From contig JADFZZ010000002.1 in NCBI GenBank assembly GCA_015232315.1, positions 186,001 to 250,000 of the forward strand: a DNA stretch of 64,000 bases, in the 5' to 3' direction. The position numbers and the translations under genes were made by a program. This stretch comes from SAR324 cluster bacterium. Lineage in GTDB: Bacteria > SAR324 > NAC60-12. Positions 27,838-31,461 of this stretch are shown piece after piece. How positions within the stretch are numbered: the stretch's first letter is position 1; each line of letters begins with the position of its first letter. The notes beneath the pieces are model-generated. The model was not told where the DNA came from. It did no database searches and saw only the letters and a list, made by a program, of their open reading frames with translations.

Positions 27838-28851
27838 ATGACATCGCAGCCTTCAAACAGCACAACCTCAACCTCTGTTTCTTCAATCAATACCTGGAAA
27901 GATGTCTGGATGTCTGGACCCGGACCAGAAACCCCCGGGCAGACGATGCTACTGATGATTAAAGGAATCTGCATGGGAACCGCGGATATCATTCCCGGCG
28001 TTTCTGGCGGAACAATTGCCTTCATCACCGGCATTTATCACCAACTCCTTCAAGCCATTGATTCCATCAATCTGGAGGTGTTGAAAAAATTATTGAAGTT
28101 CGAACTCAAGGAATCGCTGGCTCTGATTCACTTCAGGTTTTTGATTCCACTGTTTGTTGGAATTCTTGGTGCGGTGATCAGCACCGCCCGACTCATGCAC
28201 TATCTGCTTCAATATCACCCGATCCCCACCTGGTCCTTGTTTTTTGGACTGATCAGTGCCTCCATTTTTATTGTTGGCCGGGAAATTTCTGAATGGAATG
28301 CTCCGAATATCCTCAATATTTTTATGGGGACTCTTGCGGCTTATTTGATCGTCGGCATGATTCCCGTTCAAACACCGGAAACCTGGTGGTTTCTGTTCCT
28401 GAGCGGAATGATCGCGATTTGTGCCATGATTCTGCCCGGTATCAGCGGGTCATTCATTTTACTCATTCTTGGAAAATATGAATTTGTAACCAGCGCGGTC
28501 AAAAATCCACTGATTCCGGAAAACCTGACAATCATGGTGATTTTCGCCGGGGGTTGTGTTGTCGGACTTCTAGGTTTTTCCAGGGTTCTGGATTATGCGC
28601 TCAAACGCTATTATACGATCACAATGGCCGTGTTGACAGGATTCATGATTGGCGCCATGCGAAAAGTCTGGCCCTGGAAAGAAGTTCTGGAAACACAGAT
28701 CATTCGGGGGAAGGAATATGTGATTCGGGAGGAAAATGTGTTACCAGCGTTAGATTCACAACTCATGCTGGCCATTGGTATCATGCTGGCAGGCCTGGTT
28801 CTTGTTCTGGCACTGGAACGATGGTCTCGCCAGAAACCAGCACAATCATAA
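27838..28851 (+). CDS. DUF368 membrane protein, undecaprenyl-phosphate translocase family
   Basis: About nine membrane helices. Two family motifs match each other: GTADIIPGVSGGTIAFITGI near residue 48 and MILPGISGSFILLILGKYE near residue 200. This family (PopT) has been shown in other bacteria to bring undecaprenyl phosphate back across the membrane, recycling the carrier used for cell wall and other envelope polymers. Length is 337 aa, with a Ser/Thr-rich N-terminal tail of about 30 residues. A terminator lies just upstream, so its own promoter must be very close. It overlaps the next, minus-strand gene by 6 nt. Confidence 0.85.
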   Translation: MTSQPSNSTTSTSVSSINTWKDVWMSGPGPETPGQTMLLMIKGICMGTADIIPGVSGGTIAFITGIYHQLLQAIDSINLEVLKKLLKFELKESLALIHFRFLIPLFVGILGAVISTARLMHYLLQYHPIPTWSLFFGLISASIFIVGREISEWNAPNILNIFMGTLAAYLIVGMIPVQTPETWWFLFLSGMIAICAMILPGISGSFILLILGKYEFVTSAVKNPLIPENLTIMVIFAGGCVVGLLGFSRVLDYALKRYYTITMAVLTGFMIGAMRKVWPWKEVLETQIIRGKEYVIREENVLPALDSQLMLAIGIMLAGLVLVLALERWSRQKPAQS

Positions 28852-29616
28852 GGTTTCAGATATTTTTTCAAGTAGATCCTGTGTGGCTTTCACCAGTGCC
28901 TGCCTCATTTCAATTTGCTCTTCAGGATCCGCACACTGCACCAGATCTTCCGCATAACCTGTCAACCGGATATAGGCTTCATGAATCTGGGCTTCATTCA
29001 TACGGTATGCCACTGGAAGATCTTCAAGTTCCTCTTCATCCTCTTCATTTTCTGTTTCAACCACAGGCAGACGGTCCCGTTTCTTTTTAAGAGCTTCCCG
29101 AATGTCACGAACCGTCGCAGAGGGTTTGTCGCCTTTGGCTTCAGACCAGACAGCTTCACGTTCTTCCGGAGTTTTCAGACTACTCAGCAGGTAGGCCCCT
29201 GAGGCGGTATAGCGATTGATCAAATCAGGATTCGTGCCATAAACTTCAGCAACTTTTTTACACTGCATCGCTGAAGAATAAGGCATGTTGATATTTTCCG
29301 CATACCACGATTTGATTTGATCAATAGTCAGTCCTGAATTTTTGAGAGCCCGATGCAACGCAATCAGATGAAGTCCCAATAACAGAAAATCATCCGCAAT
29401 GTTTTCAATATATTGATTGATTTTGTCGACTACTTCCTGGACCTTGGCATTTTCCCGGGCTGTCGTGATGCCCTCTTCCATGTCTTCAAGGAGTGGCACA
29501 TAAAAATCAATTTTTCTCCCTCCCACGGCCAATGCTTTTGATGCATCAACATCCAGTTTTCCTTCCTTGGGAATCTGGGATTGCGATAGTAAATTGAATT
29601 TAAGAGACCGGGCCAT
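28846..29616 (-). CDS. Probable partner of the adjacent ParA-like protein (256 aa)
   Basis: Residues about 60-135 are helical (LLLGLHLIALHRALKNSGLT, IKSWYAENINMPYSSAMQCK), with the look of DNA-binding helix-turn-helix or DUF3102-type helices. A middle linker is very acidic (ETENEEDEEELEDL) and the C-terminus is helical. There is no ParB nuclease domain. It overlaps the ParA-like gene by 17 nt, as partition partners do. I infer a DNA-binding or adaptor partner; the family is not firmly recognised. Confidence 0.5.
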   Translation of the reverse strand: MARSLKFNLLSQSQIPKEGKLDVDASKALAVGGRKIDFYVPLLEDMEEGITTARENAKVQEVVDKINQYIENIADDFLLLGLHLIALHRALKNSGLTIDQIKSWYAENINMPYSSAMQCKKVAEVYGTNPDLINRYTASGAYLLSSLKTPEEREAVWSEAKGDKPSATVRDIREALKKKRDRLPVVETENEEDEEELEDLPVAYRMNEAQIHEAYIRLTGYAEDLVQCADPEEQIEMRQALVKATQDLLEKISETL

Positions 29617-30394
29617 TATCGCTCCTTTCCAGTTGTTTTTCGCTGATGCGTTTCAGGATCTCCCGGCAAAGGGCATCATACATCAACGCACCTTTGGTTT
29701 TTCCTTCCTTGTAATCAAAGATACTTTGATGAAATGCTGGAGCCTCCTGTATCGACACTGATTCTTCAATGACGTTTTGAAACAGTAAATCCGACCAGTG
29801 TTCCTGCAAACCCTGCACAATGGTTCTGGATATGTTTGTTCTGGAATTATAGCGAGTGATGGCAATCCCCAACACATCGACATGGCACTGTCCCCGGGAT
29901 TCCCGTTTGAGTTCCTCTATGTAGGTCATCACCTGGTCACAACCGCTGTATCCCAGATAATCCGTCACAACAGGAATGATCACATAGTCCACATACATCA
30001 GGATATTTTCATTGACTTCACTCCAGCTTGGGGCGCAATCAATGATGATGATATTCTGGTTCAGCGGTTCCAGACTATTCCTGACAATCGTTTCGCGAAA
30101 TCTGGAATTGCTGATGTACCTTCCTGCTTCCACCATGAGTTTTCCTCCGGAAGGCAGAAATGAAAAATAGGGACCTAATTCCAGAAAATCAAATTTTTTG
30201 ACACGTCCCAGAACAACATTGGCCAGATTGCAAACATGATCCCGTTGAAACACGGTGGTCACATTGGCCTGGACATCAGAATCAATCAGCAGGACTTCTC
30301 GTTTGGCCTTGGCAATTCGGGCCGCCAGATTGATCGCGAGTCCTGTTTTTGCCTGGCCGCCTTTCATCGACATGATAGCAATTCTTACAGTCAC
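29600..30394 (-). CDS. ParA-family ATPase with altered Walker A
   Basis: A ParA/MinD-like protein of 264 aa. The N-terminal loop reads MKGGQAKTG (K11-G18), where the family has KGGxGKT followed by S/T; the third glycine is Ala15 and the residue after Thr is Gly18. The signature lysine K11 and P-loop K16 remain. LLIDSDVQANVT and IIIIDCAPSWSEVN stand for switch I and Walker B. It overlaps its downstream partner gene, and a degenerate Xer recombinase lies 140 nt downstream. The start is a GTG. ATP binding may be weaker or altered. The assignment to the ParA class is safe. Confidence 0.85.
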   Translation of the reverse strand: MTVRIAIMSMKGGQAKTGLAINLAARIAKAKREVLLIDSDVQANVTTVFQRDHVCNLANVVLGRVKKFDFLELGPYFSFLPSGGKLMVEAGRYISNSRFRETIVRNSLEPLNQNIIIIDCAPSWSEVNENILMYVDYVIIPVVTDYLGYSGCDQVMTYIEELKRESRGQCHVDVLGIAITRYNSRTNISRTIVQGLQEHWSDLLFQNVIEESVSIQEAPAFHQSIFDYKEGKTKGALMYDALCREILKRISEKQLERSDNGPVS

Positions 30395-30531: not shown

Positions 30532-31461
30532 TCATTCCACAGATTCCGGATCATTTTGATCGTTTCGGGATCGACCTCTGGGATGAGCCTTCAAATAGAC
30601 CTCAAAATAATCCGGTCGATTGATATGCGCATAACGCAGCATGGCATCCATGTCGACATAACCCATCAAGGTCATGACATGATCGAGGTCCATTCCATTC
30701 TGGATGAGATGCGCCGCAAAGGAATGACGGATCACCCTTGCGTTGATGGGCCTGGTGATACCAATCCGCCGGGCGTGTTTGGTGATCATTGCCCAATAGC
30801 CCATCCGGCTCATCCGGGTTCCGTTGCGTCCGGGAAACAGACAGGGATCTTCCTTGTTGAGCAATCGGTTTTCCCTAGCCTGTGCGAGATACTCATGGAG
30901 CATCTCAATCGCCTTTCGGGTGATAGGCACCATTCGATGTCGCTTACCTCTGATTTTGACAAATTCCAGATCCAGAAACAGATCTTCCACATTCAGATTG
31001 AGCAGTTCGTTGACCTTCAATCCACTCGAATATGCCAATTCCAACATGGATCGATCCCGAAGTCCCAGATAATGACTTTGTGGGGGGGACTCGAGAAGTG
31101 CTTCCACTTCCTGAAATGAAAGTAATTCGGGAAGTTCCATCTGATAATCCGGAAATTCAATCAGATATGTTGGTGCATGCTCAATATGTCCCTGACTCTC
31201 CAGAAAATCAAAAAACAATTTCAGTGTTGAAATGTGGCGGGCAATCGTTCGGGGTTTCATGGTTTCAGACATTTCAGTCAGATACTCTTCAATGTTGGTT
31301 TTTTTGAGGACCTGAAGGTCAAACAGGGTGATTTCTTTGGTATCTGATCCTCCCAGCCATTTTTCAAACCGTTTGAGATCTCGCTGGTGATTGCTGAGGC
31401 TGTTTGCTGAATATTTTTGCTGCTTCAGTTGGTCAATGAATTGGTGGATTAATTGCTTCAT
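30532..31461 (-). CDS. Degenerate Xer-type tyrosine recombinase
   Basis: The fold of XerC/XerD is clear: an N-terminal SAM-like core-binding domain (residues 1-105) and a catalytic domain. Compared with XerD the catalytic Arg I is K149 (SSGLKVNELLNL), the beta-strand Lys is kept (K173), His II is R242 (NARVIRHSF), Arg II is kept (R245), His/Trp III is Y268 (LMGYVD) and the Tyr nucleophile is kept (Y277 in RYAHI). Three of six key residues therefore differ. It may bind DNA without normal recombination, act with a partner subunit, or be a diverged class. Confidence 0.85.
   Translation of the reverse strand: MKQLIHQFIDQLKQQKYSANSLSNHQRDLKRFEKWLGGSDTKEITLFDLQVLKKTNIEEYLTEMSETMKPRTIARHISTLKLFFDFLESQGHIEHAPTYLIEFPDYQMELPELLSFQEVEALLESPPQSHYLGLRDRSMLELAYSSGLKVNELLNLNVEDLFLDLEFVKIRGKRHRMVPITRKAIEMLHEYLAQARENRLLNKEDPCLFPGRNGTRMSRMGYWAMITKHARRIGITRPINARVIRHSFAAHLIQNGMDLDHVMTLMGYVDMDAMLRYAHINRPDYFEVYLKAHPRGRSRNDQNDPESVE

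Follow-up and report, generated by a model that had tools for sequence, protein, structure and literature searches.

The window, that is, the whole stretch of 64,000 nucleotides that was analysed, encodes a XerD-like protein with a substituted active site, which we will refer to as Xer-A, followed by the genes of a ParA-like ATPase and of a conserved helical protein (Table 1). Matches of Xer-A to Pfam Phage_integrase (E 2.7e-31) and to a SAM-like N-terminal domain correspond to the two-domain tyrosine-recombinase fold; its closest PDB relative by sequence is E. coli XerD (1a0p, E 1.5e-35), and the best structural matches of the predicted fold are XerD and XerA. The structure model (mean pLDDT 81.7) is good in the body of the protein and poor in residues 271-297, which carry Y277. 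Whether the fold had been lost, a question raised in an earlier note on this DNA, was addressed with the structure model and the fold search, and the fold of Xer-A is intact. The protein scores 250.5 bits with the NCBIfam model of XerD (TIGR02225), under the curated cut-off of 329.6, and 208.6 bits with the XerC model, under its cut-off of 335.15.

Table 1. Position of Xer-A, its active-site codons and the neighbouring genes in the window
Feature	Positions	Strand	Basis or remark
Xer-A, XerD-like protein of 309 aa, tyrosine-recombinase fold, active site substituted	30532..31461	-	ATG start
K149 codon, ArgI position (R148 of E. coli XerD)	31015..31017	-	Alignment with XerD; K in 31/31 orthologues
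K173 codon, catalytic lysine position (K172 of XerD)	30943..30945	-	Alignment; K or R among orthologues
R242 codon, HisII position (H244 of XerD)	30736..30738	-	Alignment and orthologues
R245 codon, ArgII retained (R247 of XerD)	30727..30729	-	Alignment and orthologues
Y268 codon, His/TrpIII position (H270 of XerD)	30658..30660	-	Alignment and orthologues
Y277 codon, nucleophile tyrosine retained (Y279 of XerD)	30631..30633	-	Alignment and orthologues
ParA-like ATPase, directly downstream of Xer-A	29600..30394	-	Pfam AAA_31, E 7e-29
Conserved 256-aa helical protein, no known family, after the ParA gene	28846..29616	-	Comparison across genomes of the phylum

The catalytic set of XerC and XerD, R-K-H-R-H/W-Y, is not the one found in Xer-A, which carries K149, R242 and Y268 instead of R, H and H. 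In the alignment with 1a0p these residues face R148, H244 and H270 of XerD, R247 and Y279 being retained as R245 and Y277, and no gaps occur around the three substituted motifs (XerD/Xer-A: GLRVSEL/GLKVNEL, PHVLRHAFATHLL/ARVIRHSFAAHLI and LGHSDLSTTQIYTHV/MGYVDMDAMLRYAHI). The identification of K149, R242 and Y268 as the ArgI, HisII and His/TrpIII positions, proposed in the earlier note, is thus borne out. The alignment also served to examine whether the catalytic residues could be conserved but displaced, which is ruled out by its gapless course at all three sites: the residues are substituted. The further proposal that K173, R245 and Y277 remain is true of Xer-A itself and, for R245 and Y277, of all 31 orthologues compared; it does not extend family-wide to K173, as the catalytic-lysine position is occupied by R in at least six relatives. 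The beta-hairpin with K173 is shorter by two residues than its counterpart in E. coli XerD. The type IB topoisomerase set, R-K-(K/R)xxR-H-Y with ArgI, is not found either, Xer-A having K at ArgI and Y at the H position.

Relatives were located by an alignment-based scan of genome contigs (a single-sequence scan had given no matches), all genomes compared being draft assemblies. Orthologues of Xer-A, with 45-60% identity, are present in 36 of the 41 genomes of the SAR324 order, namely in 29/31 of the window's family and 7/10 of the sister family; the assemblies of the order without Xer-A are drafts with 73-89% completeness. Xer-A was not found in class-level relatives (families f3 and f4). Two genomes contain two copies each, possibly an artefact of assembly or binning. 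Homologues with the same substitutions were sought, as had been proposed, and all 31 orthologues compared, from two families, carry K-E-(K/R)-R-R-Y-Y at the catalytic positions, with K149, E152, R242, R245, Y268 and Y277 invariant. Pairwise dN/dS values of about 0.02-0.11 indicate strong purifying selection and, together with the 31 orthologues, rule out a sequencing error or a pseudogene. The Xer-A family has a fixed residue in 39 of the 58 columns that do not vary in XerD (32 unchanged and 7 changed, the rest being variable), so that the invariance of the pocket is, on its own, only mildly unusual. The columns fixed to another residue are T25S, Y29H, A144S, R148K, H244R, L268F and H270Y; three of these seven are catalytic, an enrichment (hypergeometric P about 0.02) that is suggestive and not overwhelming, and another of the seven, L268F, is close to HisIII.

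A second Xer-like paralogue, Xer-B, is also kept across the order (positions 77306-78226 of contig C4 in the window's genome, G000), the proteins of other genera being about 24-33% identical to this copy. The ArgI position of Xer-B is variously M, P, T, S, R, K or Q, and its HisII position K, T, H, Q, N, R, P, A or S; most Xer-B proteins of the window's family have lost the tyrosine, which is present in 7/8 of those of the sister family. In the tree, Xer-B stands apart on a long branch (100/100). It appears to evolve faster, with an active site that has apparently lost constraint. Since the catalytic positions drift freely in Xer-B, it is meaningful that the same ones are invariant in Xer-A. 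The view of the earlier note that the substitutions are not random decay is strongly supported by the order-wide orthologues, their shared substitutions, the purifying selection and the contrast with the drifted Xer-B. The gene of Xer-B divergently adjoins glnB in both families, with the exceptions of the window's own genome and one other (G020). In five sister-family genomes, 0.8-2.5 kb separate it from smc, a stretch usually occupied by glnB and glnA; this linkage is absent from the window's own family.

In the tree, which included a single XerC (from E. coli), Xer-A groups with the XerD proteins of E. coli and Firmicutes (support 97/90) on a stem of 0.9, which makes it the SAR324 descendant of XerD. 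No close homologue turned up among viral contigs or plasmids, where the best matches are ordinary XerD or Xer-like proteins. A mobile-element integrase is ruled out, as Xer-A is chromosomal, with neighbours common to several genera and no such viral or plasmid homologue. The succession of Xer-A, the ParA-like ATPase and the 256-aa protein occurs only in the genera g1, g3, g4 and g5, and the 256-aa protein, present in 21/52 genomes of the phylum, is mostly distant from Xer-A. An obligate ParA-Xer operon is ruled out by this linkage in four genera only, and ParA is to be seen as context rather than as an obligate partner. In several other genera Xer-A comes after zapA and a 6S RNA gene, and the glutamate-cysteine ligase gene (gshA) is near Xer-A in g3, g4, g5 and part of the sister family. 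The 6S RNA gene was observed just upstream of Xer-A at six loci, after zapA in most of them; the 64-kb window itself contains no 6S RNA match.

XerCD/dif together with FtsK is among the most conserved chromosome-maintenance modules of bacteria. In the SAR324 order, the motor domain (PF01580) and the alpha domain (PF17854) of FtsK were each found in 0/41 genomes, and the gamma domain (PF09397) in 0/52 genomes of the phylum, with FtsK domain searches that were positive in 8/14 control genomes. Any match to FtsK/SpoIIIE was confined to four class-level relatives, with none in genomes G000-G040. None of the 52 genomes of the phylum has a XerD above the curated cut-off, which is strict, because only 4/14 controls pass it. 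A near-canonical dif was not found, the query being the near-canonical sequence only, so that a divergent dif could escape the search. SMC is present in 40/41 genomes of the order and RecA in 32/41. Reports on SAR324 with FtsK or XerD were not found in the open literature. No other recombinase with the canonical catalytic set was found order-wide; the window's genome has two accessory recombinases with this set, an integron-integrase-like gene (contig C17) and a Xer-like gene (7-kb contig C67), which are outside the order-wide set, yet could conceivably act on the chromosome. The same genome contains a Xer-like gene that is broken into fragments and interrupted by a stop codon (G000:C13:106808-107321; L006, L009), probably the pseudogene of an integrase from a mobile element.

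Xer-A is therefore like XerD (TIGR02225) in its full-length two-domain fold, its grouping in the tree and its retained ArgII, Glu and Tyr, and unlike it in the replaced ArgI, HisII and HisIII, the score below the cut-off and an order devoid of FtsK domains, where a canonical dif was not found. On the other hand, the loss of FtsK is not proof of the loss of recombination, because archaeal XerA is reported to be functional without a bacterial FtsK. XerH, XerS and archaeal XerA are, besides, Xer systems without a XerC/XerD pair; they retain the full catalytic set, their models score below that of XerD on Xer-A, and SAR324 also keeps a decayed second Xer.

The earlier note had left two alternatives, a DNA-binding derivative or a recombinase with altered chemistry; they were the right pair, and the comparative evidence favours the former. 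The replacement of ArgI by lysine, the catalytic-lysine position being either K or R on a short hairpin, the absence of FtsK, the canonical dif that was not found and the wholly lost active site of Xer-B all point to DNA binding and speak against altered chemistry. Lysine at ArgI abolishes recombination by Cre, with no detectable covalent adduct in R173K, and leaves almost none in Flp R191K (PMC4499138); arginine mutants of Cre and Flp still bind their target sites (PMC4381057). Our preferred reading, held tentatively and at slightly less than an even chance, is that Xer-A is a XerD descendant without strand exchange, retained as a chromosome protein that binds DNA sequence-specifically and is most likely engaged in SMC unloading. 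Like other Xer proteins, Xer-A would grip DNA as a C-clamp; its cleavage activity would have been lost, and K149, R242, R245, Y268 and Y277 would make up a remodelled phosphate-contacting pocket in place of a cleaving one. Y277 may be retained for DNA binding or for the fold, as in MrpR, which has lost its recombinase function and requires its tyrosine for binding DNA (PMC10516654).

The likeliest job of such a DNA-binding Xer-A would be the unloading of SMC complexes at replication-terminus sites, independently of recombination, in the way in which B. subtilis XerD is described to expel SMC from ter (Karaboja et al., 2021, as cited in PMC8523169). According to that description, the B. subtilis protein acts on SMC without recombination. 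SMC is also present in SAR324, where one family has Xer-B beside smc; nonetheless, B. subtilis XerD is still an active recombinase, whereas the contact of SAR324 Xer-A with SMC is only putative. Xer-B, with its ruined active site and its proximity to smc in one family, may be a partner of Xer-A. That both Xer proteins are kept as a non-cutting pair organising the terminus, for instance by SMC unloading of the B. subtilis kind as cited, after an order-wide loss of FtsK and dimer resolution, we consider somewhat unlikely.

Five invariant pocket residues, the nucleophile included, are also expected of a working enzyme, and this counts against the DNA-binding reading; given this invariance, a recombinase that is active through altered chemistry stays a live rival, albeit an unlikely one. 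K149, R242 and Y268 would then form an alternative site, and dimers would be resolved without FtsK at an unrecognised dif by Xer-A, acting either on its own or together with Xer-B as an inactive scaffold subunit. Such an enzyme would account for Y277, R245, E152 and the three replacements being held invariant in 31 orthologues under strong purifying selection, and for the fact that two of these replacements carry a positive charge; type IB topoisomerases have a lysine at the HisII position, which the basic R242 recalls. With RecA present, a circular chromosome should give rise to dimers, and a canonical set was found in no other order-wide recombinase.

A local transcription factor or repressor, acting on its own operon or on neighbouring genes, is a still less probable role. 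MrpR (YopR), the master repressor of SPbeta, illustrates how the recombinase fold can become a repressor with Tyr and Lys kept, and Xer-A shares the pattern of this type, with ArgI, HisII and HisIII, that is, most catalytic residues, lost and the tyrosine kept (Table 3 of PMC10516654). Nonetheless, MrpR is prophage-borne, its substitutions are V/S, N and V, and its ArgII is altered, whereas Xer-A is chromosomal, vertically inherited and order-wide, with K, R and Y. The genomic context differs by genus (parA; zapA-6S RNA; gshA) while the protein stays constant, which makes a purely local function less likely; no conserved target gene is evident, and no convincing inverted-repeat operator was found upstream of Xer-A. 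A XerD remnant in decay or without function would agree with a partner system that is gone (FtsK, canonical dif, canonical XerC/XerD), but it is barely credible in a protein with such low dN/dS, an intact fold, the same substitutions in orthologues from two families and a presence in nearly all genomes.

An order of abundant marine bacteria appears to be FtsK-less and to have a XerD in which other residues took the place of the cutting ones and were then maintained by purifying selection. If Xer-A only binds DNA, the architectural and recombinase roles of XerD would be naturally separated, which would open the recombination-independent function to direct tests; should it still recombine, it would break the rule that tyrosine recombinases cannot do without ArgI.

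The K/R/Y set of Xer-A is absent from all 150 other Xer-like relatives compared (70 from genomes and 80 from viral contigs), among which ArgI differs in 6, HisII in 5, and HisIII and Tyr in none. A lysine at ArgI was found among these relatives only in five XerD-like proteins of Clostridium/Caloramator, where HisII is replaced by N, Y or F. These proteins are an independent parallel to Xer-A in the change of ArgI to K, the loss of HisII and the retained tyrosine, and differ from it in keeping HisIII and in the residues at HisII. Furthermore, sister-family genomes encode at eight loci a short integrase (about 190 aa, catalytic domain only) with ArgI replaced by K, HisII by Q, and HisIII and Tyr kept, which is putatively a further conserved recombinase-like protein with lysine at position I.
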